From a virus, in the IMG/VR virus record IMGVR_UViG_3300049255_000012, positions 1-42,291 of that record: DNA of 42,291 nucleotides, one strand, 5' to 3'. Positions 521-39,697 of this stretch are shown piece by piece. A program made the translations under genes and the position numbers. Numbering within the stretch: position 1 is the first letter of the stretch; the number at the start of each line of letters is the position of its first letter. A model generated the notes under the pieces. That model worked only from the letters and a program-made list of their open reading frames with translations. It was not told the DNA's origin and ran no database searches.

Positions 521-536
521 GCACCGCGCCTGGTGC
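521..536. promoter_or_regulatory. putative operator 1 (GCACCG-CGCC-TGGTGC)
   Basis: It matches the GCACCA-N4-TGGTGC palindrome at 11 of 12 positions. It ends 4 bp upstream of the TTGACC box at 541, where a bound protein could affect polymerase. Confidence 0.5.
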
Positions 537-540
537 TGCA

Positions 541-569
541 TTGACCGAATAAATGGCATGGCGTAATAT
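541..569 (+). promoter_or_regulatory. putative early promoter
   Basis: TTGACC, a 17-bp spacer and TAATAT match a sigma70-type promoter at 9 of 12 positions with ideal spacing. It faces the early genes beginning at 754 or 929 and is flanked by palindromes at 521-536 and 621-636. Confidence 0.5.
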
Positions 570-620
570 TCATTCACTCCCAGAGCGAAGGTGATCACAC
601 CACTTAAGCAACGGGTGATT

Positions 621-636
621 GCACCAAATGTGGTGC
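621..636. promoter_or_regulatory. putative operator 2 (GCACCA-AATG-TGGTGC)
   Basis: A perfect 6-4-6 palindrome about 50 bp downstream of the promoter at 541-569. The same palindrome recurs perfectly at 29316-29331, in front of the capsid gene. Half-sites centred 10 bp apart fit a dimeric HTH protein. Confidence 0.6.
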
Positions 637-685
637 CCTGAGGTTTAACTACTAAATATCCGACCAAGCGTCATCGCGAGGTCAG

Positions 686-728
686 AGCAAATGTGGTGGG
701 GCGAAAGCCCCTCCTCAGGTTTGCTTTT
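686..728 (+). terminator. GNRA-loop hairpin followed by T-run
   Basis: AGCAAA (686-691) pairs with TTTGCT (720-725), and GGGGC (698-702) pairs with GCCCC (707-711) around a GAAA tetraloop. A TTTT run closes the element. It could be an intrinsic terminator or attenuator of the early transcript, or a structured leader for the small gene at 754. Confidence 0.45.
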
Positions 729-753
729 CCCTTAACTAGAAAAGAGTGCGGTT

Positions 754-870
754 ATGAATAGCCGTCGTTTTTGTGCGTGCCCGCGTTGTGTTGAGATCGA
801 CTGGAAAGGGCTCGCGATCTGGCTTGTGACGTTTGCAAGTTTTGGACTCTCAATTTATTTGTGGTGGTGA
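754..870 (+). CDS. 38-residue membrane peptide with CxCxxC
   Basis: An ATG preceded by AAAAGAG about 7 nt upstream opens 38 codons. The peptide has an N-terminal Cys cluster (FCACPRC) that could bind a metal, then a hydrophobic stretch (IWLVTFASFGLSIYLWWW) long enough to cross the membrane. I recognise no family. It is the first ORF after the hairpin at 686-728. Its length makes it uncertain, but the ribosome site and the Cys/membrane composition favour a real small protein. Confidence 0.45.
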   Translation: MNSRRFCACPRCVEIDWKGLAIWLVTFASFGLSIYLWW

Positions 871-874
871 CTTC

Positions 875-928
875 ATGATCGCTGGGATCGCCAATGCGCT
901 AGCCGACTACAAAGCCGGTGCTAGATAG
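875..928 (+). CDS. possible 17-codon leader peptide
   Basis: A 17-codon frame starts 4 nt after the previous stop and its TAG directly abuts the ATG at 929. It has no clear ribosome site of its own. It may serve only to couple translation into the next gene, or may not be translated. Confidence 0.2.
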   Translation: MIAGIANALADYKAGAR

Positions 929-1138
929 ATGGCACTACCTGTCAAACATAAGTGCCCGGTGGTCTTTCCGGAGTCACTACTCGCCGAGCTGGAAGTAATC
1001 AGGATCGCGGAAAACCGCGAGACGAGGCTCAACGTCATAACGGAAGCTCTCCGCCATTACATTGCGCAATTCCGCCGCGAGAATCCCGACATCATGTTGC
1101 CGCACGGCAAGCCGCAAGAGCTAAAGGAGAAGCTTTGA
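929..1138 (+). CDS. ribbon-helix-helix DNA-binding protein
   Basis: The 69-residue protein begins with a short beta-strand region (residues 5-13, VKHKCPVVF) followed by two helices (PESLLAELEVIRIAENRETR and the following NVITEALRHYIAQF), the layout of MetJ/Arc/CopG regulators. Such proteins bind operators as dimers through the antiparallel strand. It starts the main early gene set and may autoregulate it. It is one of two small DNA-binding proteins near the left palindromes, but 6-4-6 palindromes are less typical of this fold than short tandem repeats. Confidence 0.65.
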   Translation: MALPVKHKCPVVFPESLLAELEVIRIAENRETRLNVITEALRHYIAQFRRENPDIMLPHGKPQELKEKL

Positions 1139-1241
1139 GAGTTTTGTCGCTATGCGATCTCGGCGAGTCAAAGGACAGAGCAAACAAAAGAAGCGCAACA
1201 CCGAAAGGCTTCGCGCAAGCTGTTTATGAGGCTAATTGCAA

Positions 1242-1484
1242 GTGAAAACCAAGGAAGAAATCGAGATCGCAATGCACCGGATCGCGGCGTGCGCCGTCAA
1301 CAAAGAAAACGCTGATCCCGACTATCGCGAGAAGTACAAAGAGATGTCCGACAAAGAGACGGCCATGGTTTACGCGCTCGCATGGGTGCTCGGCATGGAC
1401 TCGTTTGCGGAGATCGTTGATCGCGTCCTCGACGACTGCATTGACCTTAGCGCCTCAATTGTCGCGGAGACCTTCAACGGATGA
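1242..1484 (+). CDS. hypothetical protein (80 aa)
   Basis: I place the start at GTG 1242, with GAGG 10 nt upstream; a TTG six bases earlier is less well spaced. The protein is acidic and probably helical, with Cys at the N-terminal third (AACAV) and near the C terminus. No family is recognised. Its stop overlaps the helicase start at 1481 by 4 nt (ATGA), so it is translationally coupled to the helicase and may be a partner of it. Between 1139 and 1241 only a 25-codon basic frame (1152-1229) is present and is not supported. Confidence 0.5.
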   Translation: MKTKEEIEIAMHRIAACAVNKENADPDYREKYKEMSDKETAMVYALAWVLGMDSFAEIVDRVLDDCIDLSASIVAETFNG

Positions 1485-2911
1485 CCAAGCCGCGAACACT
1501 ATGGCCGCACCAAAGCCGAGCGATCGAGCAAATCCGCGCCGCGTTTGAGAATCACCGCCGCGTTGCTTACCAACTGCCGACCGGCGGCGGTAAGACTGAC
1601 ATCATGTGTGCCATCGCCGCCGGTGCCATCTCTTATGGCTTCCGTGTGCGCTTCGACACGCATAGAAAAGAATTGGTCCGTCAAATCTGCAGGCGCTTGG
1701 AGCTGTTTGGCGTCAAGCCTGCCGTTATCGCTTCGGGGTATCCGTCTGATGAATACGCTCAATGCCAGGTCGCGTCAATCGATACTTACGCTCGACGATT
1801 GGGACAGTATGGCCGCTTTGATCTCATATTCCGGGATGAGTGCCATCATTCTCCATCCAACAAGTGGCGTAACAGCTTGGACGGCGACGCCTCTCATATT
1901 CTTGGTGTATCCGCAACACCGCGACGACTCGACGGCAAAGGACTCTCGGACGACTACGACACTCTAATTTGTGGACCTACAGTACCCGATCTGATCCGCG
2001 ACGGCTTCCTCGTCCAACCGCTTGTCTATGCGCCGCCGTTAGCCTTCGACCGGTCGTCGTTGCGCTCGCGTGGTGGCGACTTCGCCAAGGACGACGTTAC
2101 CGCGGCTTTGGAAAAGACCAAGTCGAAGATCTTCGGCGATGCGATCGCTCACTATAAAGAGATCTGCCCAGGAACGGCCGCGATCGCGTTTTGCCATAGC
2201 GTCGAAGCCGCTCACGAGTTCGCCGAGAAATGCAACGCTGCCGGCATAAAAGCCGCCGCTGTCGACGGCACTATGAGCGACTATCAGCGCGAGATGTACC
2301 TCGACAATCTCGACTCAGGCGCGATCCAGGTGCTCGCCAACTGCGAGTTGCTCGGGGAAGGCGTCGACGTCCCGCGCGTCGAGACCGTGATCCTTATGCG
2401 GCCAACAATGTCGGAGAGCCTATTTTTACAGCAATGCGGTCGCGGGCTGCGAGCCGATCGAGAGCGCGACAAACGATATTGCTACGTCCTGGACCATGTC
2501 GGCAACTGTCACGAGCATGGCTTGCCGGACGAGCCCCGCACATGGACACTCCAAGGCAAGACGCCCAGGAGCAAAGGAGACACCGCGGAAGTGACACCGG
2601 CGACGGTGACATGCCGCAATTGCTTCGCCATGTTCCGACCGGCTCCGACCTGCCCTCGGTGCGGTGCTGAGATGCCCAAGAACGAGCGCGAGTTGAAAAT
2701 GATCGACGGTCAGTTGATGCTGATCAGCGATCCCGCGTTGCTCAAGCGCGAGGAAAAGGCTCGGGCAAAGCAAGAATTGGATCTGGCGATCGGACGAGCT
2801 CGGACGCTTGACGACTTCAAGCAGATCGCTAAAGAACGGGACTACGCGCCAAATTGGGCTTACTTCCAATTTAGTATGCGGCAACGAAAAATGATGAGGA
2901 AGAAGGCGTGA
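1481..2911 (+). CDS. superfamily 2 DEAD/DEAH-type DNA helicase
   Basis: The 476-residue protein has the full SF2 motif set: Walker A LPTGGGKT (about 32-39), DECH (119-122), SAT (144-146), and motif VI QQCGRGLR (317-324), so two RecA-like domains are complete. A zinc ribbon (C378, C381, C391, C394) and a helical tail follow. This layout is that of phage helicases related to the ResIII/RadD group. It would unwind DNA or branched intermediates in phage replication or recombination. Start ATG overlaps the upstream stop. The later primase-helicase is a different superfamily, so the phage carries two helicases. Confidence 0.88.
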   Translation: MTKPRTLWPHQSRAIEQIRAAFENHRRVAYQLPTGGGKTDIMCAIAAGAISYGFRVRFDTHRKELVRQICRRLELFGVKPAVIASGYPSDEYAQCQVASIDTYARRLGQYGRFDLIFRDECHHSPSNKWRNSLDGDASHILGVSATPRRLDGKGLSDDYDTLICGPTVPDLIRDGFLVQPLVYAPPLAFDRSSLRSRGGDFAKDDVTAALEKTKSKIFGDAIAHYKEICPGTAAIAFCHSVEAAHEFAEKCNAAGIKAAAVDGTMSDYQREMYLDNLDSGAIQVLANCELLGEGVDVPRVETVILMRPTMSESLFLQQCGRGLRADRERDKRYCYVLDHVGNCHEHGLPDEPRTWTLQGKTPRSKGDTAEVTPATVTCRNCFAMFRPAPTCPRCGAEMPKNERELKMIDGQLMLISDPALLKREEKARAKQELDLAIGRARTLDDFKQIAKERDYAPNWAYFQFSMRQRKMMRKKA

Positions 2912-3006
2912 AAAAAGCGATCATTATTGTCTCTTTGAATATGCGCGGACCTTGGACTTGGAGACTCAACAAGTCGCGGTCAAAGTTTCAACGTTTCAAC
3001 GAATGA
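2908..3006 (+). CDS. small basic peptide (32 aa)
   Basis: A GTG overlapping the helicase stop (GTGA) opens a 32-codon frame; GAGGAAG lies 5-10 nt upstream. The N-terminal half is hydrophobic (AIIIVSLNM), the rest is basic and Trp-rich. No family is known. The overlap and ribosome site are the only support. Confidence 0.35.
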   Translation: MKKAIIIVSLNMRGPWTWRLNKSRSKFQRFNE

Positions 3007-3057
3007 TCGAGACAGCGTCTTGATCATCTTCCCAAGCAACCATCAGGAGAAAACTAG

Positions 3058-3705
3058 ATGACAATTAAAATCAAAGATCGCTGGACAAATAGGGTTCTTC
3101 ATTCCAGCGAAAAGGCAACCCTCAAGGAAGCGCTAGAAGAAGCTGTTAGCAACGGCGCGAATTTGGACGGCGCGAATTTGTCCCGCGCGACTTTGGACGG
3201 CGCGAATTTGTACGGCGCGACTTTGTACGGCGCGAATTTGTACGGCGCGAATTTGTCCCGCGCGACTTTGTACGGCGCGAATTTGGACGGCGCGAATTTG
3301 TCCCGCGCGACTTTGGACGGCGCGAATTTGTACGGCGCGACTTTGTACGGCGCGAATTTGTACGGCGCGAATTTGGACGGGATTAAGAATGACTTCTTCG
3401 AAATCATTCTAAATACGCCAAATGAATTGCCAGGGTTGCGACTCGCTGTCGTCGAAGGACGGATCAATGGCTCGGTCTACGAAGGAGAGTGCGCTTGCCT
3501 AGTAGGAACGATCGCCAAGGTGCGCGGCTGCCTTTACACCGCTATTCCTGGTGTCGAGCCGCGCGGAGGCAGACCGATCGAGCGCTTCTTCACCGCTCTT
3601 AAGCCAGGCGACTCACCGGACAATCACCCAGTCGCCAAGATAGTCGTTGACTGGATCGACGAGTTCACCGCCAAGCTGACCGCTGCCGCTGCCCTGGTGA
3701 AGTAG
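3058..3705 (+). CDS. pentapeptide-repeat protein with C-terminal domain
   Basis: After about 30 residues containing a KEALEEAV helix, roughly 15 pentapeptides of the A(N/T)L-x-x type (ANLDG, ANLYG, ATLYG, ANLSR) should form a right-handed quadrilateral beta-helix. A C-terminal domain of about 100 residues follows (start around GSVYEGECACLVGTIAKV), of a kind I recall after pentapeptide repeats in other phage proteins. The start has AGGAG 8 nt upstream. Some such proteins mimic DNA and protect gyrase, but nothing here proves that. The repeats contain a recent 104-bp duplication. It abuts the nuclease gene at 3706. Confidence 0.8.
   Translation: MTIKIKDRWTNRVLHSSEKATLKEALEEAVSNGANLDGANLSRATLDGANLYGATLYGANLYGANLSRATLYGANLDGANLSRATLDGANLYGATLYGANLYGANLDGIKNDFFEIILNTPNELPGLRLAVVEGRINGSVYEGECACLVGTIAKVRGCLYTAIPGVEPRGGRPIERFFTALKPGDSPDNHPVAKIVVDWIDEFTAKLTAAAALVK
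3152..3375 (+). repeat. 15-bp coding repeats with a 104-bp perfect duplication
   Basis: Units alternate between GGCGCGAATTTG and GGCGCGACTTTG with GAC, TAC or a CCC-containing variant between them. The block 3152-3255 is identical to 3272-3375, a period of 120 bp (eight pentapeptides). Lack of synonymous changes points to recent duplication or gene conversion. Confidence 0.9.
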
Positions 3706-4074
3706 ATGACGAGCGAGAAGTCGGTCAAGGCAGCGATAAAAGTAGCGTTTGGCGCCCAGCTAGATCTGACGCTATTCGTCAACGATCAACTTCTCGCTTA
3801 CCTCCCCGGTCCTAACGGCAATTACAGACCTTACAAATGCGGGCTCGGCTCCGGGACGAGTGATCTCGTCGGCTGGCAAACGACCATCATCAAACCCGAG
3901 CATGTCGGCAAACCATTTGCGCGTTTTCTTGCGGCGGAATTAAAAAGACCTGGCGGCGGCAGGCGCACGCCCGAGCAAATCGCATTTATCCGCTCAGTCG
4001 TCACCGCCGGCGGTATCGGTTTTTTTGCTGACAGTGTGGAAGCCTTCGCAAAAGGATTGGAGCAATTCGAATGA
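3706..4074 (+). CDS. VRR-NUC domain nuclease
   Basis: The 122-residue protein matches stand-alone phage VRR-NUC nucleases: a Gly-rich GLGSGTSDLVG (46-56) with metal ligand D53, then ELK (78-80), and GGGRRTPEQIAFI afterwards. These PD-(D/E)XK enzymes cut branched or flap DNA in replication and recombination. ATG follows the upstream stop directly and its end overlaps the next gene by 4 nt. It sits between the SF2 helicase and the primase-helicase, consistent with processing of replication intermediates. Confidence 0.85.
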   Translation: MTSEKSVKAAIKVAFGAQLDLTLFVNDQLLAYLPGPNGNYRPYKCGLGSGTSDLVGWQTTIIKPEHVGKPFARFLAAELKRPGGGRRTPEQIAFIRSVVTAGGIGFFADSVEAFAKGLEQFE

Positions 4075-4337
4075 CAGCTACCGACGTCCTCTATTGCATC
4101 GTCACCTCCCTATTCGCCGGGCTGTCTATCCTCTTTTGGCTTGTCGCGCTATTCATCGGCGAAGGCTGGGAAGAAGTCAAACTCGTTCAGTCGTGCAAGC
4201 ACGACGACATCATGTTTTTTGAGGACGAGCGAGTCTATTGGTCGTGCCGTTGCTGCGGTCGCATGACAAATTTTTTTGACGACAACAATGTCGAGGACTG
4301 TCCAGGAGACGTCCTTGGCGCATACAAGGAGGACTGA
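4071..4337 (+). CDS. small membrane protein with CRCC motif
   Basis: The 88-residue protein has one N-terminal transmembrane segment (residues about 7-29, LYCIVTSLFAGLSILFWLVA) and a soluble tail with Cys and His (SCKHDD, WSCRCCGR) that could bind zinc. It overlaps the nuclease stop (ATGA) and its own stop overlaps the next start (TGATG), so it is fully coupled. No family is recognised. It may tether an early complex to the membrane, but that is a guess. Confidence 0.6.
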   Translation: MTATDVLYCIVTSLFAGLSILFWLVALFIGEGWEEVKLVQSCKHDDIMFFEDERVYWSCRCCGRMTNFFDDNNVEDCPGDVLGAYKED

Positions 4338-5425
4338 TGGGACTAAGACGAGACGAACTACTAAGGCGCGTCGCCAACAGAGAGGCTATCAAGCGCGATT
4401 GGAAGGACTTGCAAAAGCCGCCGATCGACGCCGACGACGAGAGCCAGAAGCTTTACGACAAGACCGCCAAGGAATTGAAGAAGAATTACTTTGGTGAATG
4501 CTTCGGCGTGAGTGCTGACATTCGCTTGCTCGATCGCGCTTGCGATATTCTGGCCGAGAACGTCATGAAGCTTGAAGGACTCAGGCCATTAGACGGCACT
4601 ATGAACAACACGATCCGCGACAAGATCGTCGACGAGGCGTTGGAGCATGCTTGGGATTTGATGCCGGTTGAGTCACGACCGCCCGCTCCGGTGCCCGTGC
4701 AAACCAAGATCGACAAAGCCATCGACGAGGCTATAGCGGAGAAGAACGAGGACGGCGTCGAGCTGCCAGTGATTGTATTGCCGCCGGCCAATGGTGAGAC
4801 GGGGGAAGAAATCGCGCCAACGGTGCGGTACATTGCGCTATGCGCTGAGGCTGAGAAGTTTGGCATCGACAAAGCCGCCGTCGACAAGATGCTCTCGGAC
4901 ATGATCGGCGACGTCGAGATCGACCATGCGGTGATCGAGGAATTGCATTTGCATTTGCAAGAGCATATCCGCACCGCTCAGGCGTCCGTCACCGTCGAGG
5001 AAATCCTCGCGGCTCTCCATGCTGGTATCGAAGGACTGGCTAACGTCGAGCAAGTGATCGCCGATCGCCAATACGACGAGCCGACCGCGTTGTACTTCAA
5101 GATCCAGGAGTTCGCTAGCGCTCATTCAATCTCGCAAGAGGCGCTAACAGAGTGGCTCAAGTCGGAAGGCATTGTCACCGAGGACGGTGGCGCCGCTTCC
5201 TATGCCGACTTTGTCCGGCTGGCTGAGCGCGTGATCGCTTGGGCAAACCAAGACGCCGAGAAGGTCGTCGAGGACATCGTTAATGATGATGCCCCGCAAG
5301 AGGAAGCCGAGCAACAAGAGGTCGCCCGGGAGCCAGCAAAAAAGTCGACGAGGAAGGCGAGGACACCGGCGAGACGTCCGGGCATCAAGCCCGCGAAGAA
5401 GAAGTCAGCGTCGCGTAAGAGATAG
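4337..5425 (+). CDS. hypothetical protein with basic histone-like tail
   Basis: The 362-residue protein is mostly acidic and helical for about 325 residues. It then switches to a Lys/Arg/Ala/Pro-rich tail (about 328-362) ending PAKKKSASRKR, like bacterial histone-H1-type tails that bind DNA or RNA. No catalytic motif is seen. It is coupled to the upstream gene by TGATG, and an intrinsic terminator lies 13 bp after its stop, so it closes the first early transcript. A nucleoid-like or replication accessory role is possible but unproven. Confidence 0.6.
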   Translation: MGLRRDELLRRVANREAIKRDWKDLQKPPIDADDESQKLYDKTAKELKKNYFGECFGVSADIRLLDRACDILAENVMKLEGLRPLDGTMNNTIRDKIVDEALEHAWDLMPVESRPPAPVPVQTKIDKAIDEAIAEKNEDGVELPVIVLPPANGETGEEIAPTVRYIALCAEAEKFGIDKAAVDKMLSDMIGDVEIDHAVIEELHLHLQEHIRTAQASVTVEEILAALHAGIEGLANVEQVIADRQYDEPTALYFKIQEFASAHSISQEALTEWLKSEGIVTEDGGAASYADFVRLAERVIAWANQDAEKVVEDIVNDDAPQEEAEQQEVAREPAKKSTRKARTPARRPGIKPAKKKSASRKR

Positions 5426-5437
5426 GTTTGTTCACAT

Positions 5438-5467
5438 ACCGAGCCGGTCTCGGCTGGCTCGGTTTTT
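5438..5467 (+). terminator. intrinsic terminator
   Basis: ACCGAGCC (5438-5445) and GGCTCGGT (5456-5463) form a perfect 8-bp stem with a 10-nt loop, followed by TTTT. It ends the transcript of the gene at 4337 and argues against an upstream start at 5428 for the next gene. Confidence 0.85.
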
Positions 5468-5487
5468 ACTACGGTTGGGAGGATCAA

Positions 5488-5832
5488 ATGCTAAGACAAA
5501 GGGTACAAGCCTATCTCGATGAGCTTAACCAAAAGGCGCAAATGCTTTTTTCCATTGTTGGCATTCTTGAGAATGTCGAGATATTCGCCAAGAAGCTTGA
5601 GAACACCGACGGAGATAGCAGTGTCGAGGTCAATTTCAGCTATGCAACGGAACGACCGATCTCGGTTGAAACCGCGTTTTTGCGTGAAAACTTGAAACCG
5701 GCCGCGCTCAAGAACAAGCGACAAAAACTTGAACTATTGATCGCCCGGTGCGAAGAAATCCGCATAGCCGCCGCGAAAGTCCAATATGAAGCCCGCGTCG
5801 AGCTTGCGGATCTATGCGCCCGCGGCAACTAA
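5488..5832 (+). CDS. hypothetical coiled-coil protein (114 aa)
   Basis: I start at ATG 5488, with GGGAGG 7 nt upstream, because an in-frame TTG at 5428 would place the terminator hairpin in the coding region. The protein is helical with heptad-like Leu/Ile spacing in the N-terminal (LRQRVQAYLDELNQKAQML) and C-terminal halves (LELLIARCEEIRIAAAKV). No family is recognised. It lies alone between the terminator and the primase-helicase. Confidence 0.55.
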   Translation: MLRQRVQAYLDELNQKAQMLFSIVGILENVEIFAKKLENTDGDSSVEVNFSYATERPISVETAFLRENLKPAALKNKRQKLELLIARCEEIRIAAAKVQYEARVELADLCARGN

Positions 5833-5924
5833 CAAGCGCGTTAACTCATTCCCCTTTGCGCTTTATCAATTTGTGATCGGTTGGTGCCGATCGCCGGATA
5901 CCTCATTGACTGAACGGATAACGA

Positions 5925-7820
5925 ATGTCGTCGGAATTACCAGCCGCAAAAGATGAAGAAATCGCGCTGCTCGGCTGCCTTTTAACGCTACCGGACGAGC
6001 CGGAAGTCGCGAAAGTCTTGAAGCAAGTAAGCCAAAAGGACTTCGCGATCGCCGCTCACAAAGCCATCTTTCTAGCGGTCGACACTCTTGCGAAAAGTAA
6101 CTCTGAGATCAACGAGCTTGCCGTTAAGAAGTGGCTGCAAAAGCGAGAGCTGCTCGACTCGGTCGGCGGCTTTCCTTATATCACGGCGATTGCAGGGTCG
6201 TATTTTACCCCCAGGCAGATCGACTACTACGTCGATGAGATCAAGGCAAAGACGAGACAACGCGAGCTTATGCGGCTCGTGTCGAAGCTCCTCGACGACG
6301 GTAATCCCGAGTCGATCATCCGGCAGATCGCCGAGCTGCAACCGGTCGACGACCCAGAAGAAAAGGAGAAGAAAAAACGAGTCGTCCGGCTGCCGGCTGA
6401 GGTCAACTCCGAAGTCGACCTACTCACCGAGACCAACGCCGCCGATCGCTTTGTCTTGAAGCATCAAGAGAACGTCCGTTGGACTGGGGACCATTGGTAC
6501 CTATGGGACGGCAAGCGCTGGAAGCAGGACGAGAGCGGCGAGGTCCGCGAGCTGGCAAAGCAAACAAACGGACGCATAGTCACCGACCTATGGGAGGCGA
6601 TCACCGAGAAGGACTCGCTAAGACGCTTCCAAAACAAGATGCTTGGTCGCCGTGGTCTCGACAATACCTTGGAGCTGGCAAAGGCTCGGCTGTTTTTCTC
6701 GCGCACCAAATTTGATACCAACCATTGGCTACTCAACTTCAACAACGGAGCCGTCGAGCTGAATATGTTTGACTCAGCCAAGGAGTATAACGAGCAATTT
6801 GGCAAGCGCCGCGACCACCGGCGAGAGGACAATTGCACAAAGCTACTCGATTACGACTTCGACCCCGACGCGAAGTGTCCCGAGTGGGATGCGTTCATGC
6901 GTATGATCTTCAACAAGTCGGACGAGCTTGTCGCTTACGTAATGCGCGCGGTTGGCTACTCGTTGACCGGTGTCACGTCTGAGCAATGCTTCTTCTTCTG
7001 CTACGGCGAAGGACGCAACGGCAAGACCACCTTTCTTGAGACGATCCTTGACTGCGTCGGCTCGTATGGCAAGACTGCCGACAAACTGTTGATCATGGAG
7101 AAGGGACAACAAACCAAGCATGGAAACCCGATCCAGGTGCTCGGCGTCCGGTACCTGCCGGTCGGCGAGGTCAACGACAAAGACAAGATCGACGAGACCG
7201 CGCTCAAGAATTGCACGGGTGAAGATACGCTCACCGGGTCGAATGTTTTCGAGAACATGATCACATTCAAGTCGACCGCTAAGGTGTGGCTGAGAGGCAA
7301 CGAGAAGCCCAGAGTCCGAGCGACTTTCTCCGTATTTCGCCGCGTGCATTGCATACCGTTCCTAGTCGAGGCTTCCGACGCCCAGGTCGCCAAATACGAC
7401 GGCAAGATCGGCGACGTCCTCCGTCGTGAGCGTCAAGGCATCATGGCAAAAGCCGTGCAAGCTTGCGCGGAATGGCAAGCGTTAGGGAAGCTAATGCCAC
7501 CGCCGGAAGTGGCTGCCGCGACTGAAGAATATCGAAAAGAAATGGACTTCTTCGCGCAAGCGATCGAGGAAGTTTGCGAGATCGACAAAGACAAAACTGA
7601 GTCGAGCCTTAGATCTTGCTCGTTCAAAGACCTACAACAAGCGCTCAACCGCTGGGCCAAAGACAACGAATACCACCCTTGGAATAGACACCGCTTGATC
7701 AAAGACCTGAAGGCTCACAAATTTAGCGGTCCCAAACTGAGACACGGATACCCGCATTATTTCGGGCTCTCTATCCGCGCCGACTGGCTTCCGTCCCAGC
7801 AATTGAGGTACTACCGGTAA
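5925..7820 (+). CDS. primase-helicase: DnaB-N-like domain fused to D5/P4-type SF3 helicase
   Basis: Residues about 7-115 look like the N-terminal domain of DnaB (EEIALLGCLL, ending in QIDYYVDEIKAKTRQREL). The middle region (about 175-330) is D5-N-like and the C-terminal part is an SF3/AAA helicase with Walker A GEGRNGKTT (361-369), a B-type strand YLPVGEVN and the typical AKVWLRGNEKPRV stretch. The family makes ring helicases that start replication of phages such as P4. The N-terminal domain in DnaB binds primase and loader. The fusion suggests loading through host DnaB partners. No primase catalytic motifs are evident, so primase activity is unproven. It overlaps the exonuclease gene by 1 nt (TAATG). 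Confidence 0.85.
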   Translation: MSSELPAAKDEEIALLGCLLTLPDEPEVAKVLKQVSQKDFAIAAHKAIFLAVDTLAKSNSEINELAVKKWLQKRELLDSVGGFPYITAIAGSYFTPRQIDYYVDEIKAKTRQRELMRLVSKLLDDGNPESIIRQIAELQPVDDPEEKEKKKRVVRLPAEVNSEVDLLTETNAADRFVLKHQENVRWTGDHWYLWDGKRWKQDESGEVRELAKQTNGRIVTDLWEAITEKDSLRRFQNKMLGRRGLDNTLELAKARLFFSRTKFDTNHWLLNFNNGAVELNMFDSAKEYNEQFGKRRDHRREDNCTKLLDYDFDPDAKCPEWDAFMRMIFNKSDELVAYVMRAVGYSLTGVTSEQCFFFCYGEGRNGKTTFLETILDCVGSYGKTADKLLIMEKGQQTKHGNPIQVLGVRYLPVGEVNDKDKIDETALKNCTGEDTLTGSNVFENMITFKSTAKVWLRGNEKPRVRATFSVFRRVHCIPFLVEASDAQVAKYDGKIGDVLRRERQGIMAKAVQACAEWQALGKLMPPPEVAAATEEYRKEMDFFAQAIEEVCEIDKDKTESSLRSCSFKDLQQALNRWAKDNEYHPWNRHRLIKDLKAHKFSGPKLRHGYPHYFGLSIRADWLPSQQLRYYR

Positions 7821-9746: not shown

Positions 9747-9749
9747 CCA

Positions 9750-9992: not shown

Positions 9993-10004
9993 GAGGAAAA
10001 CGCC

Positions 10005-10619: not shown

Positions 10620-10628
10620 AGGAGAGCA

Positions 10629-10868: not shown

Positions 10869-10894
10869 CCAAATCAAATAGGAGTTTTATCAAC

Positions 10895-12968: not shown

Positions 12969-12978
12969 GGTAGGGAAT

Positions 12979-16425: not shown

Positions 16426-19400
16426 TTAGTACCCCTGGATAATTACGTCAACGGTGCCCGCTACTGCGTTCCCGCTACTGTCGAAAACTTTGATTAATGG
16501 TCCCGCACCAATGGTGGTGACTTTGTCGATCCACTCCGCTCGGACACCAGTCCCGGTGCCCTCTTTGGTTATGTTCACGACTTCGATCACGCGGTACGTT
16601 TTGGTGATCGGGACTCTAGTCCCTGTCGTTGCTGCGATCGAAAGATTGCCGAAGGACTCGTCGACGTCGGGAACGTCGAGCGAAATAGTAAGCGCTTGGA
16701 TCGATCCTTTCTGTTGTCCGCCGGGGATCGTTATCCTGAATTGATATATGCCTGCCTGAGCTGGAAGCGATCCGGTCCAAGGCTGATAAGCCGAGAAGTT
16801 GACCGTCCAAAACGGTGCCGATCCGCTTGTCCACATTGGCGACGATCCGCTCGTCCACATTGGCGGGTTGGAGTCGCTGAAGCAATACTCGATCGTCCAA
16901 CCGACTCCGACGAACGTCGACGAGCTTATGATGATGTTGCCCGGTAGATTCGACGAGAGGACAGGGAATTGGCAGATATAGACGAGCGGATTATAAGCGC
17001 TCGTCCACATCAGGGTTGAGCCGACCGCATTCCAAAAAGGCGTCGCGCCGTTAGGGCCCCACATCAGACCGAGGCTCGTCGCGGTCAGATAGCCCGAGCC
17101 GTCGATCGCCGCTCCGGTGTAAGTGCCGGGGAACGAGGACGCCTTGTAGTCCACCGGCAGTATCACATTTGATGTCACCGGATCGCCGACATCGACTTCA
17201 ACATTTGCCGCATTGACCGACTCAGCGCCGGATAAGTTCACGATCTTGATCATGAATGTGCGCGTCCCAGGCGGGTATTGCGAGACATCCAATTGGTTGA
17301 CCAGCGTTAGCCCTTGGACCACCGGCGTTCCTTGTGCCCAGTTAACGGTGCTACCAGCAATGGTGCGCACCGCATAGCCCGCAAAGTCAGAAGGCAACGC
17401 GGGAGCGACCCAGGTCAACAAGCCGTCGGAGACATTAGCGCTCGTTATGTCCGGAGGGAGATTGGTATCGGTGCCGGCAACATAGCCGCTTACTGTTTCC
17501 CAGTCAGAGGTAAGACCCTCGGCGGTGACGCTCCTGATCTGAAAGTCGTAGCTGAGCCCCTGTTGCACGGGACCGAAAGTAATTTGACCGCTTTGGACTG
17601 TCGCCGGTGCCATCTGGCTCCAATTAGCGCCCGAGCCCGTGAGCAACCATTGACCCTCGATCGTGGTCACGCGCGAGTCGTTGCCGGGCTGGAATGTGAT
17701 TACAACCTGAGTTTGAGTTGCGCCACCGGGCAAAGCGATCCCGACCGACTGGACGTCGGATTGTACGGCGACCACCGTCGGCGGTGGCACATCGACGCCG
17801 ACTAGACCGACTGGCAATTGGATAGAGCTTACGAATGTTCCGTACTCTTCTGTATCTGCGGTGAAAACTGCAGGCGAATAATCCACCGCCGTTATGATCG
17901 CGCTCATGTGTGGTGAGGTTTGCGGCTCGATCTTGGTGACTAGGAAATCAGCCGTTGGTCCGTTCCCGATCGTTAGCAGGTTCCCGACTGCCGGCAATGG
18001 GTTGGTAGTGTGCGGGATCGGCGTCGTGAACGTGATCAGGTTGGTGGCGTTGCCGGTGTTATTTACCGCTTCCAATAGAGTCGAGTTGTCCGACATGCGG
18101 ATCGAGACGGAGTAAGCGCTTTGACCGTCCATTGTGATCGTCTCGTCGATCGCGACTGACAGGACGTTGCCCGAGCCGTCAACGTTTACGGCGGTAATGT
18201 AGCCTTGCCCGATGCCTTGTAATAAGACATCGTGCGTTATCTCGATGCGATCGCCGACGTTGCATAACAGGTGTTCAAAGTCGACATTGAATGTCAGAGT
18301 GCGCGGTCGAAGCGCTCCGACTGCCAGATAATAGCGCCCGAGCTTCTGAGCTTGGGTTGCGTTGGTGACTCCCGGTAGCTGCAATTTTTGATAGGAATAG
18401 GCGATCTGTGTTCCGTTGGCACCGTCCGCCGAGTATCCGTCGGCGTAGACAATGACTGAGTCTTGTTGATAATCGACGTCCGGGTTGACGAAGTCGACTA
18501 GCAAACTGTTTGGAAGTCGCGGGTAAACCTTAGTCAGCTTGAAATTGCTGCTATTGCGCGGCGTAAAGTGCTGCGCGATCGTTGCGTTCGGTATGTCGTG
18601 AAACACGCCATATAAGCCGTTCTTCTGCAAAAAGGAAGCTCGACCGGCCGTCGCGATCGCTTGCCCTGCCTGATACGCTGTTTGCTGCGTGTCGAGGACG
18701 TCGTTGTATTGAAGCCCGAGGTTGTCGCAACTGTTCGCCCAGGAGAGCAAACCGGCAAGATCGAAGCGGCTCGTCGAGACCGGCTTCTTATTCAACTGCC
18801 CGGTGTATATGTCCAGGAGCGCCCACGCTGGATTATTGGTCTGTTGCGTCGTAAAGCTGGTGCCGTTCCATACTGGCAAATGACGTTTGACGAGACAAGA
18901 GAAGTTGTTTAGCGCTTGTGGTGCGCGGTTGTTGCCGACCCTAATCGCGACCTTCGCCAACGGAATGACTGAGCCGTCCCAGTTGTACAGCGGCGGGATC
19001 GGATCTTCATTGACCAGCGCGGTTAGAGCGTTCCAGTTGACTTGATCGTGTGTATTGTTGTCGGTCGATTGCGAGTTGCTTCTCTCGGCTCGCACAATGT
19101 AGAGCCCGCGGGAAACAAGGATGCGCCTCGACGTTGTGATCGCCGCGCCTGACTGTCCCTCTATAGAGAAATTGATGCTCGTATAACCTGAGGTTAGGTT
19201 GCCGTGTGAGTCACAAGAGGCGTACTCGACGGTGATGTCGACGCCTTTGCTCGTGCGCGTTGTCGTTGAGACTTGCTTGCCGCTAGAGTCCGTCGTCGTC
19301 GTCGTGACGTCCTGATAAAGCCCGTTCGGAGCGGCGAAGAACAAGAGGATCTCGTCGCACGCGATCGGTGTCTCCTTGTATGCCCAGCCTGGCGAGAGGG

Positions 19401-24699: not shown

Positions 24700-24715
24700 G
24701 CACCAAGGACGGTGC
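24700..24715. promoter_or_regulatory. putative operator 3 (GCACCA-AGGA-CGGTGC)
   Basis: One mismatch to the 6-4-6 palindrome. It lies in the 47-bp gap between two tail genes, where a bound protein could block elongation. It can also form a 6-bp RNA hairpin (GGCACC/GGTGCC) without a T-run. Confidence 0.45.
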
Positions 24716-27249: not shown

Positions 27250-27265
27250 ATCCGACCTAGTGATC

Positions 27266-27771: not shown

Positions 27772-27792
27772 TTTGCGTTGCTCCTAGTGTGG

Positions 27793-27811: not shown

Positions 27812-27839
27812 TCCATGTCTACTCTGTTGCTGCCGCTTA

Positions 27840-29120: not shown

Positions 29121-29169
29121 GCCATCACCTTTGCTGATGCGTGGTGATGCAGGACCGAGAGCGCAAAGC

Positions 29170-29229: not shown

Positions 29230-29308
29230 AATCTACAGATTGGCGGGCCGGTCGTGTGTTTAACGCTTGTCTGAAGCTACAGCTATCAGAGGCGTCAACG
29301 CCTTCGAA

Positions 29309-29338
29309 TATTCAAGCACCATCTATGGTGCGTGTCAA
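29309..29338 (-). promoter_or_regulatory. putative capsid-gene promoter with operator in the spacer
   Basis: On the minus strand TTGACA (29338-29333) is a perfect -35 box. The next 18 bp contain the perfect palindrome GCACCA-TAGA-TGGTGC (29331-29316). The -10 (TGAATA) is poor, so the promoter is tentative, while the palindrome is clear. Confidence 0.4.
29316..29331. promoter_or_regulatory. putative operator 4 (GCACCA-TCTA-TGGTGC)
   Basis: This is the second perfect 12/12 copy of the palindrome seen at 621-636. It lies in the 222-bp gap between protease and capsid genes. Confidence 0.6.
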
Positions 29339-29342
29339 CTAA

Positions 29343-34249: not shown

Positions 34250-34251
34250 CG

Positions 34252-34635
34252 TTAGCCCCCTATTGTTGTCGGCGTCGGTGGCACTATTGACCCAGGCGCG
34301 TACCATGGCATCAGCGCTACCCTGGAATCTTCCGGTTGCGCATGCGTGCCACTTGTTGGATTGCCAAAGACGTCGGTGTTTTGTACCTGATTGATCGTGG
34401 TGCTGATCGCGTCCGCTTGCGCGTATGTGGTCACGCTTTGGAGCTGACAGTCGACCGCGCCATAGCTGCCGTCGCCCATTTCCAGGACAATAAACGGGAA
34501 CGCTCGGATCGTTGCGGGCTGGTAAGATGCGCTCGCGACCGGGTCGGACCAGTCAACGAGGTAATACGATCCCGCTGGTAAACTCGCGACAAACGCGCGG
34601 CTTGGTTGTTCTCTCGGATCGTAAAAGATGATCAT
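34252..34635 (-). CDS. hypothetical protein of the fibre cassette (127 aa)
   Basis: The protein is beta-rich (FVASLPAGSYYLVDWSDP, FPFIVLEMGDGSYGAVD, LQSVTTYAQADAISTTINQV) and Ser/Thr-rich, with a short C-terminal Pro tail. Its start overlaps the Gly-rich gene stop (ATGA). I recognise no family; a fibre chaperone or accessory is possible by position. Confidence 0.5.
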   Translation of the reverse strand: MIIFYDPREQPSRAFVASLPAGSYYLVDWSDPVASASYQPATIRAFPFIVLEMGDGSYGAVDCQLQSVTTYAQADAISTTINQVQNTDVFGNPTSGTHAQPEDSRVALMPWYAPGSIVPPTPTTIGG

Positions 34636-35600
34636 GCGCTTACCTGCGTCGGTCCTATAGTCGCGCCCGCGCCGCCGCTTCCAGCGCTTGCCGCACCATA
34701 GTGAGTGCCACTTCCAGAGCCGCCGGACTCGGTAATCGTCCCAGTATTTGAGAGCGTGCCCGCATACTGGATGTCTATTACGCCACCACCGGAGCCAGCG
34801 CCCGCCGCTGGATAGCTACTACCTGCCCCGCTTCCGCCGGGCTGTCCGAGGCTTTGTATTACAGCGCTCGACCCTATTGTCAGATTGCCGCCGACGCTCA
34901 GCAAAAGCGTTCCGCCGGTGCCGTTCGATCCTGCCGTTCCTGATCCACCGGAGCCAGATCCGCCAGCGCCGCCAGTATTGCCAGCGCCGCCGCCTGAGCC
35001 TTGGTTGCTTCCGCCGCCACCACCCGCGCCACCCGCGCCACAATTAGCGCCGCCTGCCCCGCCAGCCCCGCTAGTCGAAGTGCCCGTATAAGCGCCACCA
35101 CCACCGCCCGAGCCGCCGCCGTAACAGGTACCGGCTGAGCCGTTGCCGCCAGGCCACAGGTCGCTATGATCGGACGAGCTACCAGCGCCACCACCACCGC
35201 CGCCACCACCACCGGTGCCATTGGTTGCCGTCCCACCGCCGGTGCCGGGATTGGTGTTACCGGTTGTCGCGCCTGCGCCGCCGCTTCCGCCAGTCGCGGG
35301 AATCACGTCCACATGCGGGACATGCGAGGTATTGAAATAGGGATTATGCGCGCCTTCGCTCGGTGGCGTCGCGCTGCCGTTGCAAACGACGTTGATCGTA
35401 CCCTGGATATTGCAAGCGCCTTGCACGTAGATGTAGCAGCCCATCGCAGACTGAAGCGTCAATGTCTGCCCGGAATTGACTGTAAGGCTCGTGAATTGCT
35501 TGATCAGCGGGCCGGTCGAGTTGGTATAAGTCGTGTTGCTGCTAATCGTCGCAGCGCCATCACATCCGGTGCCGAAGTTATTATGCCCGTGGTGTCGCAT
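34632..35600 (-). CDS. glycine-rich tail-fibre-like protein
   Basis: After FGTGCDGAATISSNTTY the protein turns into a beta-solenoid-like N-terminal region and then a Gly run (about 110-240, up to nine consecutive Gly) ending in VGGNLTIGSSAVIQSLGQPGGSG. This pattern is common in phage adhesins with polyglycine-type tips. I place the start at ATG 35600, 4 bp after the upstream stop; ribosome-site support is weak. It is probably a receptor-binding or fibre-tip protein. Confidence 0.6.
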   Translation of the reverse strand: MRHHGHNNFGTGCDGAATISSNTTYTNSTGPLIKQFTSLTVNSGQTLTLQSAMGCYIYVQGACNIQGTINVVCNGSATPPSEGAHNPYFNTSHVPHVDVIPATGGSGGAGATTGNTNPGTGGGTATNGTGGGGGGGGGAGSSSDHSDLWPGGNGSAGTCYGGGSGGGGGAYTGTSTSGAGGAGGANCGAGGAGGGGGSNQGSGGGAGNTGGAGGSGSGGSGTAGSNGTGGTLLLSVGGNLTIGSSAVIQSLGQPGGSGAGSSYPAAGAGSGGGVIDIQYAGTLSNTGTITESGGSGSGTHYGAASAGSGGAGATIGPTQVSA

Positions 35601-35604
35601 ACCG

Positions 35605-36096
35605 TTATTCAAGGTACCAATTACTCCCGTCGGACGAGAAGCGGTAAGCATTGAATTGAGCGGTTGCAGTGACCACGCCTGATGCCTGTCCGCTGATTGT
35701 TTGCGAGGATGTCGTATTGAACGTGATCGTGGTGCCACTTCCGGTAAGAATTACGACAATCTCTTGTCCGGCAACGCCGACGGCGGTCGGCAGTGTGCAA
35801 GTGAGCGTCGCCGAGCAGTAATACATATTCTGCGCAACAGCGGTAAAGCTGCTTGATTTGTTGCTTGCGGTAAAGCCACCACCGCCACCACTAGGAGCCG
35901 CCCAGGAGCCATCAGCTCTCAGGAAGTTGGTCGTCCCGCCGCCGGATGCCGGGACAATCCCAGCCGCACCGCTCGTGAAAGTCGGAGGCGTCCCATAAAG
36001 AAGCGTGCCGGTCGCGGTGATGCCGTTAGCAAACTGCCCCGACGATGCTGTCGAAGGTTTGATCGATGTTGACTTCGGGCTGAGACCGCCGAGCAT
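35605..36096 (-). CDS. tail-fibre-like protein with GGTTNFLRADGSW motif
   Basis: The 163-residue protein contains GIVPASGGGTTNFLRADGSWAAP, a motif common in fibre proteins, before a short beta-rich domain with TLPTAVGVAGQEIVVI. TAA of the upstream gene and ATG are separated by 1 base. Likely part of the adsorption apparatus. Confidence 0.62.
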   Translation of the reverse strand: MLGGLSPKSTSIKPSTASSGQFANGITATGTLLYGTPPTFTSGAAGIVPASGGGTTNFLRADGSWAAPSGGGGGFTASNKSSSFTAVAQNMYYCSATLTCTLPTAVGVAGQEIVVILTGSGTTITFNTTSSQTISGQASGVVTATAQFNAYRFSSDGSNWYLE

Positions 36097-36097
36097 T

Positions 36098-36517
36098 TTA
36101 GAAGTCACCGCCAAACGCGAATAGGTTGATCTGTTTTGCGCTTGTCACCGTCACCGGTGCATAAGCGTAGAAGGTCGTCGTCGACTTGATGTCGAGATAC
36201 GGGTTGCCGTAAGCGTCAACCGGTAAGTAAGGGAATTGTGTAGTCTTGAAAGGGAACACCGTCGGAACCGTGTCGAGAGTGCCTGACTGAGCCGGGATCG
36301 AGACGATCCCTAAGTCGTAGTTGGTGGCGGATATGGTGACACCGATCACGATGTCTCGCGCTGAAGTATCGGTCGACGAGACGATCAGCCCCAAGATCCG
36401 CGATCCATTTGTCGCGCCTGTTGCGATCGTTTGCTTCGTTTGACCTGCGGCATTATTGATCGACGCGACCCAGTTTTGGAGCGTTTGAATATAGCCAGGA
36501 AGATTACCCAAAGACAT
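36098..36517 (-). CDS. hypothetical virion-like protein (139 aa)
   Basis: A short protein (SLGNLPGYIQTLQNWVASINNAAG, then ILGLIVSSTDTSARDIVIGV and a final FAFGGDF) with regular beta-strands, resembling small phage decoration or fibre proteins. Coupled to the upstream gene by TAATG. Role unknown. Confidence 0.5.
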   Translation of the reverse strand: MSLGNLPGYIQTLQNWVASINNAAGQTKQTIATGATNGSRILGLIVSSTDTSARDIVIGVTISATNYDLGIVSIPAQSGTLDTVPTVFPFKTTQFPYLPVDAYGNPYLDIKSTTTFYAYAPVTVTSAKQINLFAFGGDF

Positions 36518-36768
36518 TAGAGCCCACCCCCAAGGTATGAAAGCAACGCCGGATCGACCGAGTAAACGATCGTCCGGCTGTTGGTTGAGTCGTCGACCGG
36601 TACACTCCCAGCGCCGGCGAAGTCGATCGTCGTGCGTTGCGTTTGCCCCGTCCCGTTGTTTTGCACGGTGGCGTAGGCTTGCACATACGACGGGTTAACC
36701 ACGTCGCCTGATGTCATCTCGGCGGGCGTGTTATTAGCCCCAACTTTTAACGGCGTCTGGTTTGCCAC
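36517..36768 (-). CDS. hypothetical fibre-cassette protein (83 aa)
   Basis: MANQTPLKVGANNTPAEMTSGDVVNPSYV is Asn/Thr/Gly-rich and ends with a hydrophobic LLSYLGGGL. Its N terminus resembles that of the next upstream gene (VGTNNIPTET versus VGANNTPAEM), suggesting shared attachment motifs. Function unknown. Confidence 0.5.
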   Translation of the reverse strand: MANQTPLKVGANNTPAEMTSGDVVNPSYVQAYATVQNNGTGQTQRTTIDFAGAGSVPVDDSTNSRTIVYSVDPALLSYLGGGL

Positions 36769-36775
36769 TTATCGC

Positions 36776-37285
36776 TTACCTTTGGATCGGAACGATCTGC
36801 AACAGGAAGTCCATTGACGTTGCCGTCGCGGCGACGCCGACTTTCTGCAACAGCGATCCGCTGCCTTGCGCTGGTGCTGTCTGAGTGATAGCGCCCGCGG
36901 TGCCGAGGAAACATTCACCGCCGACGGTCAAACCGGTCAAGCCGGTGATAGCGGGTCCGTTGAACAGATAGACCGAGCCCGATCCAGAGCTTGAAATCGC
37001 AGAAGGCGCATAACCGTGAGCCGGTTTATACGTGGAGTTGTCGGCGTTTCTTACGTTGATCGTCCCGGAGTTGTTCCATTCGCTGATCAGAGCGCCGGCG
37101 GAGATCGCCTCGGATGCCGTTCTCGTCACCGCCGATGATGTCGGCAACATACTTGTGTCGATCAGGCCGGACGAGTTGAGAGCGACGAGCTTGTTGGCGT
37201 CGGCGGAGCCTGCCGAGGTCGTGTTGGGCGTTGTTTCTGTCGGGATGTTGTTTGTTCCGACTGCCAAATATTTGTAGACCGTCAT
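36776..37285 (-). CDS. tail-fibre-like protein (169 aa)
   Basis: The protein starts TVYKYLAVGTNNIPTETTP and then SADANKLVALNSSGLIDTSMLP, a pattern typical of phage fibre collars, and ends with a VGGECFLGTAGAITQTAPAQ segment as in fibre stalks. Likely part of the receptor-binding apparatus. Confidence 0.6.
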   Translation of the reverse strand: MTVYKYLAVGTNNIPTETTPNTTSAGSADANKLVALNSSGLIDTSMLPTSSAVTRTASEAISAGALISEWNNSGTINVRNADNSTYKPAHGYAPSAISSSGSGSVYLFNGPAITGLTGLTVGGECFLGTAGAITQTAPAQGSGSLLQKVGVAATATSMDFLLQIVPIQR

Positions 37286-37300
37286 TGTAAGTTGTCCTCT

Positions 37301-38086
37301 TTAGAGTGCGACCGGTTGCCCCGTGTTGACCACCAACACGGAGCTAGATTTTGCGTATCCGATAAGTTGGCTCCAAACGGCTCCTGAAGCGTTGGGCGTG
37401 GTACTCAACACCCCGTTTAAACCAACAAAGTAAAAGCTGTCTTGCGTCCAAGATCCGCCCGCGACCTCGCCGGCGAATTGGTAATTGATCGTCGCGCCTA
37501 CGAGCCCAGATTGCGAAGCAACGCCGATCACCTTGCCTGCATGAGCGAGGTTTGTTGGGTTGGCCGGATACAATAAACCGCCGATCAAAACGACGGCAGT
37601 ATCTGCGCTTATTGATGTGCCCGCGGTCTCCGATCCGCCGCCGGTCCCCGTGCCTGGCGGTCCCTGATAGCCCACTGTCACGACCGTGATCTCACCGGTG
37701 CCCGAGACGGTGACACCAGATGTAGTGCCGCCGCCCTCGATCGCTCCGTCAAAGGCGTTGTACTCGCCGGAGAGCAATGTCACGACGTCGCCATTAGGGA
37801 AAGTAAAGGTCAGGTCGTATGCGGCCGTCCTGAAGTTGAGCGCGGCTTGTTGCGCGCTCGTCCAAGCCAGGCTCGACGATCCGTTCGGAGGATCAGCGAT
37901 CACGATGCCACTATTGCCGGTGGTCAGCGTTCCGTAAACTGCCGCATTGGCTGAGCGATTCGCGCGGATGATCATCGTCGCGCTACAGCCGGTCAGGTTG
38001 ATCGGGTTTCCGTTCTCGTCATTCCACTGAATGACTCGACGAAATGCATCGCCGAGAACGTTTGCGAAGTCCCATTGACCAGGCAT
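37301..38086 (-). CDS. baseplate/fibre-like protein (261 aa)
   Basis: The N-terminal domain (DFANVLGDAFRRVIQWNDENGNPINLTGCSATMIIRANRSA) looks like a phage upper-baseplate or fibre adaptor domain. It is followed by a collagen-like GYQGPPGTGTGGG and a C-terminal VIGVASQSGLVGATINYQFAGEV domain that recurs in fibre proteins. It starts at the stop of the previous gene (TAATG). Confidence 0.6.
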   Translation of the reverse strand: MPGQWDFANVLGDAFRRVIQWNDENGNPINLTGCSATMIIRANRSANAAVYGTLTTGNSGIVIADPPNGSSSLAWTSAQQAALNFRTAAYDLTFTFPNGDVVTLLSGEYNAFDGAIEGGGTTSGVTVSGTGEITVVTVGYQGPPGTGTGGGSETAGTSISADTAVVLIGGLLYPANPTNLAHAGKVIGVASQSGLVGATINYQFAGEVAGGSWTQDSFYFVGLNGVLSTTPNASGAVWSQLIGYAKSSSVLVVNTGQPVAL

Positions 38087-38715
38087 TAGCTTTGGAGTTC
38101 CTCTTGCACGATGTCGGCCAACTCGCCAACGAAAAGACCGGCTTTGAAAGCGCCTTTTTGGACCAATTTATCGACGATTTTTATGGCTAAATTGCGGTTT
38201 TTTTGTCTCAAATCCGCGTCAAAAGCCGGATTTTCCGGTGAAAAGTCTTGTTTTTTCGGATATTTCTCGCTGCAATCGCAAGTCACCGCACAAAAGAGAC
38301 AAAAGTCGTTTGACGACGCTCGACGCTCCATGCCGAGTAGCTCTTTACCTTCGGCGTCGAAAAGCCGGCTATCGTTCCAGATCATTGTAGCGCCTCCGCA
38401 TAATGCCACCATCAGCGATACCACCAACATTAACGCGAGCTTAAATACCCCCCTTGGCAATTTTGCGGTGGTGCCCTTTGGGCCCAACGCGCGTTCCATC
38501 AGGATTGCGATACAGCGATTAAGACCCCCATACCCCTGGACGCCGAGCCTGTCAGCGTTTGCGCGATCGCTGCCGAATGCAGTCGACCTAAGTTCCGAAA
38601 ACCTGGCGGTGTCATGCTTTGCGGTGTTCATGCCGATCAGCACCCGATCATCCCATACCTGATAGCCGGTTCCCGTGCCAAGGCATCGCCCCTCCCATCG
38701 CTTAATCTTGATCAT
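38086..38715 (-). CDS. hypothetical membrane protein (209 aa)
   Basis: ATG 38715 overlaps the upstream stop (ATGA). The 209 residues include a basic N-terminal domain, one transmembrane segment (about 92-112, LALMLVVSLMVALCGGATM) and a Cys-rich stretch (DFCLFCAVTCDC), then a helical C terminus. No family is known. An ORF on the opposite strand (38111-38662) is a shadow. Confidence 0.5.
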   Translation of the reverse strand: MIKIKRWEGRCLGTGTGYQVWDDRVLIGMNTAKHDTARFSELRSTAFGSDRANADRLGVQGYGGLNRCIAILMERALGPKGTTAKLPRGVFKLALMLVVSLMVALCGGATMIWNDSRLFDAEGKELLGMERRASSNDFCLFCAVTCDCSEKYPKKQDFSPENPAFDADLRQKNRNLAIKIVDKLVQKGAFKAGLFVGELADIVQEELQS

Positions 38716-39095
38716 TTTGCCTTCGGTAGCTCGACGCGCACCTGAAAAGCTTCGGCTACTTCCTCGCCGTCCCAACTACTGATCCTTAGCCAGCAGGTAT
38801 AGACCTTAGATACTGTCACTTCATAGCCACTCGCCTTAAATTCTGCCGCCACGAGGTCGGCATGTGCCCTGGTGAGAAACTTAGCCGAAGCCGAGAAGTC
38901 GCGTTTGACTTGTCGAATCAGGCTATTGCGCTCGTAATCTTGCTCGGTTTCTTCTATAAGTCTCAGGCGCTTGGCTTGTTTCGCTGCAATTGATGCTGCT
39001 GATGGTATGCTCTTGGCGGAACAAACGGGCGTCATGCTCAGCGCTAGCAACGAGGATATGACAATGGTTGAAATAATCTTTTGGATTTTGATCAT
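38712..39095 (-). CDS. putative secreted protein, internal start in the HNH frame
   Basis: An internal ATG with GAGGACC 9 nt upstream begins MIKIQKIISTIVISSLLALSMTPVCSAKS, a clear Sec-type signal peptide with an AxA-like cut. The remaining 100 residues are helical and charged with two pairs of possible Cys. It may be a second product of the HNH frame or the true gene, with HNH ending just before. Function unknown; exported to the envelope. Confidence 0.5.
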   Translation of the reverse strand: MIKIQKIISTIVISSLLALSMTPVCSAKSIPSAASIAAKQAKRLRLIEETEQDYERNSLIRQVKRDFSASAKFLTRAHADLVAAEFKASGYEVTVSKVYTCWLRISSWDGEEVAEAFQVRVELPKAK

Positions 39096-39515
39096 TCTAT
39101 CGGTCCTCGGTTCGCATAAGCCATATTGTCGCGCGGACTGAGCGGTCGCTCTCCTGTTGCCAAAGCCACCATCGCTGGTGGCAGTCTTGCGTGAGTGACA
39201 GTTTCCACAAAGCGATTGCAGGTTGGACAACTCGTCGGGACCGCCTGATTGCCGTGGTAAGCGGTGGTCTACGTGTGTAGCATTGCGGTTGCACGGTCGG
39301 CCGTCCTGCAATGTCGCTTCGCAGAATGGTTTAGTGGTCAGTTGCTCGCGTCGGAGCCATTGCCAAAACTTGGATTTATAGAACGAGACATCGGCAGGGT
39401 TGCGCCCGACGTTCTTCGCCTGTTCGCGCTGTAGTGTGTGCTCGGTACACAGACTTGAGCAAGTGTAGGTCTTACAACCTGGTTTATTACACTTATGTGG
39501 TGCTCGTGTAGGCAA
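38712..39515 (-). CDS. HNH endonuclease fused in frame to a signal-peptide segment
   Basis: The first 120 residues are a typical phage HNH nuclease: zinc Cys pairs (C9/C14, C19/C23), FYKSKFWQWLRREQL, and HVDH (81-84), NLQSLCGNCHSRKT (98-111). Such enzymes nick DNA near the terminase site during packaging. Unlike usual HNH genes, no stop follows; the frame runs about 20 codons into a signal peptide protein starting at 39095. The start is a TTG without a good ribosome site. It opens the late gene set. Confidence 0.8.
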   Translation of the reverse strand: MPTRAPHKCNKPGCKTYTCSSLCTEHTLQREQAKNVGRNPADVSFYKSKFWQWLRREQLTTKPFCEATLQDGRPCNRNATHVDHRLPRQSGGPDELSNLQSLCGNCHSRKTATSDGGFGNRRATAQSARQYGLCEPRTDRMIKIQKIISTIVISSLLALSMTPVCSAKSIPSAASIAAKQAKRLRLIEETEQDYERNSLIRQVKRDFSASAKFLTRAHADLVAAEFKASGYEVTVSKVYTCWLRISSWDGEEVAEAFQVRVELPKAK

Positions 39516-39653
39516 TGACCGATAACCGACGTTTGAGATCGATGCGGTTGGTACCTAGCACGATCAAGAATTACAAACGCGGTCGAGTCAAACTCGCCAC
39601 AAGAACCAATTGCATAAATAGTATCAAACTGTTGAGGATAAGCAAGAGCGACG

Positions 39654-39669
39654 GAACCAAATGTGGTGC
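39654..39669. promoter_or_regulatory. putative operator 5 (GAACCA-AATG-TGGTGC)
   Basis: One mismatch to the palindrome; its spacer AATG equals that of operator 2 at 621-636. Centre to centre it is 28 bp from operator 6. Confidence 0.5.
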
Positions 39670-39681
39670 GTATATCCAACG

Positions 39682-39697
39682 GCACCATATTTGATGC
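39682..39697. promoter_or_regulatory. putative operator 6 (GCACCA-TATT-TGATGC)
   Basis: One mismatch to the palindrome. It lies 15 bp upstream of the -35 box at 39712. Confidence 0.5.

Follow-up and report, generated by a model that had tools for sequence, protein, structure and literature searches.

The conserved inverted repeats (CIR) of the phiC31 repressor are dispersed palindromic operators, in a system whose repressor and host differ from those of the present case. In phage P1, 22 dispersed operators carrying the asymmetric 17-mer ATTGCTCTAATAAATTT belong to a known repressor, C1 (PMC8546580). Cluster A mycobacteriophages such as L5 possess more than 20 repressor sites, located in promoters and in the spaces between genes; these stoperators are asymmetric 13-mers that are bound by a monomer, and their orientation follows transcription (PMC9283540). 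Another arrangement has been described in SP-beta, where the 15-bp motif SPBRE, bound by the tyrosine-recombinase-like protein MrpR, was detected in silico long before its protein (PMC10516654).

The DNA analyzed here (the window, 42,291 nt in full), an IMG/VR virus record, is a prophage integrated into the 5' half of tRNA-Asn. The complete tRNA-Asn gene is found at 42167-42240 and its 5' half is present again at about 57-100. The early genes run rightward from about 541 and include a helicase, a DnaB_N/D5_N primase and an SbcC-like gene. The late genes run leftward from about 39.5 kb and comprise HNH, terminase, portal, protease, capsid, tail, tape measure and tail-fibre J genes, while the integrase gene is located at 40817-41911. 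At attR (42158-42240), the restored tRNA-Asn has a phage-supplied TATAAT upstream. It is also noted that the product of a minus-strand gene at 40211-40780, between the integrase and an origin-like region, has a signal-like N-terminus; this gene is possibly lysogenic cargo. In the whole window, GATC occurs 447 times versus about 162 expected from base composition, and GCGATCGC 11 times versus about one expected; these excesses hint at a cyanobacteria-like host.

Over-representation and location of the palindrome

A pattern scan of the window for GCACCA-N4-TGGTGC with at most one mismatch finds seven copies, two of them perfect, at the same places as in the sequence-only reading of this DNA. All seven are recovered by a repeat scan, and the reversed control pattern has no matches. 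With at most two mismatches, 17 copies are observed, compared to 1.5 in shuffles. The look-elsewhere scan covered 4096 half-sites at 25 spacers, with 300 dinucleotide shuffles as the null. GCACCA at spacer 4 ranks first among the gapped 6-bp palindromes (7 versus 0.08 expected, p=3.8e-12), an expectation for which the earlier estimate of about 0.1 was right; the lowest p value across the 300 shuffles is 7.2e-8. It should be mentioned that the raw maximum count is not decisive, with some word reaching at least seven in 7 of 60 shuffles, and the ranking was therefore based on per-word expectations.

The excess is seen at spacer 4 only. When the same half-sites are placed at the other spacers from 0 to 30, there are 0-2 copies with at most one mismatch and 0-7 with at most two, and on both counts the palindrome leads 3720 same-composition combinations of half-site and spacer. 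Codon phase lifts the counts at spacers 1, 4, 7 and so on, and for this reason a synonymous-codon null was also run, as described below for the coding copies. Six of the seven copies with at most one mismatch are located in the 8.1% of the window that is non-coding (binomial p=1.8e-6), in agreement with the previous assignment of six as intergenic; the exception is the copy at 16505, inside the tail-fibre J gene.

On the early side, the predicted operator copy GCACCGCGCCTGGTGC (521-536, one mismatch) ends 4 bp before the -35 hexamer of a predicted plus-strand early promoter, TTGACC-17-TAATAT (541-569), which was identified by consensus match only. A perfect copy, GCACCAAATGTGGTGC (621-636), lies about 50 bp into the early leader, with additional GGTG/CACC half-sites nearby at 590, 598 and 614. 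On the late side, the copies GAACCAAATGTGGTGC (39654-39669) and GCACCATATTTGATGC (39682-39697), each with one mismatch, form a tandem at 28-bp spacing ahead of the late operon. The second perfect copy, GCACCATCTATGGTGC (29316-29331), lies in a 220-bp gap that precedes the major capsid gene. A possible capsid promoter, TTGACA-17-TTGAAT, can be read from the sequence on the minus strand at 29310-29338, and its spacer consists of this palindrome plus one base; the promoter scan omits it because an A is demanded at position 2 of the -10 element. Another copy, GCACCAAGGACGGTGC (24700-24715, one mismatch), is found 29 bp before the ATG of the major tail protein gene, which is on the minus strand. 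The copy within the tail-fibre J gene, GCACCAATGGTGGTGA (16505-16520, one mismatch), is followed by a two-mismatch copy at 16544. The copies were also considered as intrinsic terminators, in which a G+C-rich hairpin is followed by a T-run; this assignment was rejected, with the copy at 24700 alone being weakly terminator-like. Separately from the palindrome, positions 431-455, between the open reading frame at 131-400 and the early promoter, form a perfect inverted repeat, CCTTGTAG-N9-CTACAAGG.

Weak coding copies, free half-sites and an origin-like region

The weak copies in coding sequence and a wider family of TGTGGTG half-sites are new beyond the earlier note. Ten further copies with two mismatches are located in coding sequence, giving 11 coding copies together with 16505. 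Under a null that preserved, gene by gene, both the encoded protein and the codon usage, 2.13 are expected at spacer 4, and none of 3000 shuffles reaches 11; no comparable coding excess is found at other spacers under this synonymous-codon null. Ten of these 11 copies are in late genes and one is in the primase gene. The half-site TGTGGTG occurs 19 times in the window versus 2.85 expected, an enrichment of about 6.7-fold. Non-coding DNA holds 11 of the 19 (p=4e-8), and 11 copies fall in control regions that total about 1.2 kb, with clusters around the early promoter and in the origin-like region at 39.77-40.11 kb.

The origin-like region (39771-40107) contains 14 GGTG/CACC cores versus 3.1 expected, including six TGTGGTG. 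The cores form two opposed clusters in which they are mostly about 10-12 bp apart, roughly one helical turn. The region also has 31-nt inverted arms (39814-39844 and 40047-40077) and an A+T-rich middle, so that phased repeats lie beside A+T-rich DNA as in iteron origins. We infer from this arrangement that the region may be a replication origin, and its array could possibly be read by the DnaB_N and D5_N primase/helicase encoded on the plus strand at 5925-7820. An alternating CG run is present in the same region. When viral contigs were scanned for the pattern of the array, only the same prophage and a chance match in a collagen-like gene (L080) were returned.

Candidate binding proteins and related contigs

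The 89-residue product of the plus-strand open reading frame at 131-400, beside attL, is a candidate repressor. It is HTH-like by eye only, and neither an HTH model nor any other family model matches it in family searches. At attL (57-100), the host tRNA promoter, as judged from the TATAAT upstream of the tRNA, points into this frame and may be the promoter from which it is read. A second candidate binder is the 69-residue, ribbon-helix-helix (RHH)-like product of the plus-strand frame at 929-1138. It has weak matches to antitoxin EndoAI (E=0.003) and VapB_antitoxin (E=0.039), and its structure model displays the RHH helix pattern. The models of both candidates are weak or poor, and a fold search with them gave no significant match.

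Viral contigs were searched by the capsid, ORF 131, ORF 929, terminase, primase and helicase, and genomes by the terminase, and neither search found divergent relatives with related regulators. The relatives recovered are either identical contigs of the same prophage or distant ones with 33-39% identity. One contig, IMGVR_UViG_3300048014_000387, matches the window at 100% identity wherever the two overlap and continues past the right end with 1.6 kb of host DNA. This flank contains the palindrome once with two mismatches, as GCACTAAATGTGGTGT (L079:1131-1146).

A scan of viral contigs for tandem motifs returned 64 loci, many of which are chance-like or lie in repetitive coding sequence. In one unrelated contig (L017), a tandem pair of CACC-N6-GGTG separates an HTH_3 repressor gene from a Ner-like HTH_35 gene, and two others (L031 and L052) have a pair at the start of an HTH_3 gene. 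These pairs provide a precedent for CACC-N6-GGTG as a phage-switch operator. In another contig (L069), an RHH-like gene and a replication O gene lie downstream of the motif, an arrangement that makes a replication role also possible. This architecture is thus found beside more than one class of protein.

Proposed role of the palindrome

We propose that GCACCA-N4-TGGTGC probably serves as operator for a single dimeric DNA-binding protein encoded by the phage; the lysogeny repressor is the likeliest candidate for this protein. The operator reading is supported by the statistics, the spacer specificity, the non-coding bias, the coding excess, the half-sites and the proximity to promoters. The half-sites of the palindrome are 10 bp apart, equal to one helical turn, and the site is symmetric, as would suit a dimer. 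Copies are placed at the early promoter (521 and 621), at the head of the late operon (39654 and 39682), before the capsid gene (29316) and before the tail gene (24700). Sites at both early and late control points are what one would expect of a lysogeny repressor more than of a late activator, and the copies at late positions and within genes agree with silencing through promoter occlusion or a roadblock. A dimer bound at the early sites would block early transcription. Binding at the late sites would silence late transcription, with the dimer acting either as a roadblock or on promoters themselves, such as the possible capsid promoter, in whose spacer a copy lies. Loss of the protein on induction, or its displacement by a competitor, would then let both transcription units run. 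What counts against the operator reading is that the position of the copies relative to promoters is not uniform and that neither candidate frame (131-400 or 929-1138) is tied to the palindrome. The sequence-only reading had proposed a dispersed operator whose half-site spacing fits a dimeric HTH protein, and had named the proteins from 131 and 929 for footprinting; the operator part of that proposal is well supported by statistics, symmetry, spacer and position, but neither protein could be linked to the site.

A replication system offers a different account, in which one initiator or RHH protein would act on TGTGGTG half-sites in an iteron-initiator-like manner, with direct arrays at 39.77-40.11 kb and inverted pairs elsewhere, the dispersed copies tuning transcription or copy number. 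The core excess, opposed clusters, inverted arms and A+T-rich middle of 39771-40107 all agree with it, as do the D5-type primase/helicase gene and the CACC-N6-GGTG repeats near or within phage replication O genes in two other contigs (L069 and L059). We nevertheless consider it unlikely, since replication alone does not explain why copies precede the capsid and tail genes or lie in late genes, the repeats have no linked initiator, and the palindrome and the iteron have in common only the GGTG core and some flanking bases. The two functions might conceivably be joined, with one protein recognizing the GGTG half-site in two arrangements: the dispersed palindromes, where a dimer would silence early, late and within-gene transcription, and the phased array of the origin-like region. 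Prophage silencing would then be coupled to replication, with selection keeping the weak late coding sites; this combination also appears improbable. A late-gene activator binding upstream of the late head, capsid and tail promoters is less probable still. There are indeed copies ahead of the late operon and of the capsid and tail genes, and the copy at 521, just upstream of a -35 hexamer, is in a usual position for an activator. However, copies flank the early promoter on both sides, weak ones occur in coding sequence, and the copy at 29316 falls in the spacer of a possible promoter.

Recognition of the sites by a protein of the host instead of the phage, for example a global regulator of the LexA-like or another type, is very unlikely: the single weak copy with two mismatches in 1.6 kb of host flank is the whole of the positive evidence, and the sites in the phage have a density and a clustering in keeping with a phage system. 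RNA hairpins with a stem of 6 and a loop of 4, acting as terminator, attenuator or RNA operator, are equally hard to accept and, in our judgment, marginally the least probable of these explanations. The stem geometry is suitable, the mismatches of the copies at 521, 24700 and 39682 become G-U pairs in the sense RNA, and the copy at 24700 looks like a weak terminator. Folding is, however, only modestly better than in shuffles (z from +0.5 to -2.6), T-tracts are absent except weakly at 24700, and it is the sequence rather than the pairing that is kept. The enrichment of free TGTGGTG half-sites, mostly in non-coding DNA, suits a protein that reads a DNA half-site and not an RNA stem.

Comparison with known dispersed operators

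Returning to the reading of the palindrome as a repressor operator, the site is best called a new site sequence within a known kind, the dispersed operators of temperate phages, as judged by comparison: a single word recurs, in excess of expectation, at several of the phage's control points. As with P1 C1, a single repressor is predicted to have many sites across a temperate phage genome. In contrast to the asymmetric 17-mer of P1, the site here is a 16-bp palindrome, and its repressor is at candidate level only. For a temperate phage in which no repressor is annotated, the palindrome, if the reading is correct, would supply a 16-bp target for fishing one out.

The likeness to mycobacteriophage stoperators that was suggested earlier is functional at best. 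Like the cluster A sites, six of the seven copies are in promoters and short intergenic gaps, both early and late, although they are fewer than the 20 or more of L5. The form of the site departs from the asymmetric, monomer-bound 13-mer: it is symmetric and so lacks an orientation, with equal half-sites and a fixed spacer of 4, and weak copies extend into coding sequence. The palindrome is therefore not a stoperator by definition. The stoperator repressor is a two-domain protein of about 180 residues with an HTH and a stoperator-domain. The candidates here have 89 and 69 residues and no clear family matches. The palindrome also resembles SPBRE in being a repeated element of promoter regions, and the reader of SPBRE is a master lysogeny repressor. 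If the proposed role is correct, a symmetric and partly coding-embedded case would join the few known dispersed-operator systems, and the most would be learned from its coding copies, whose number exceeds what protein sequence and codon usage account for.
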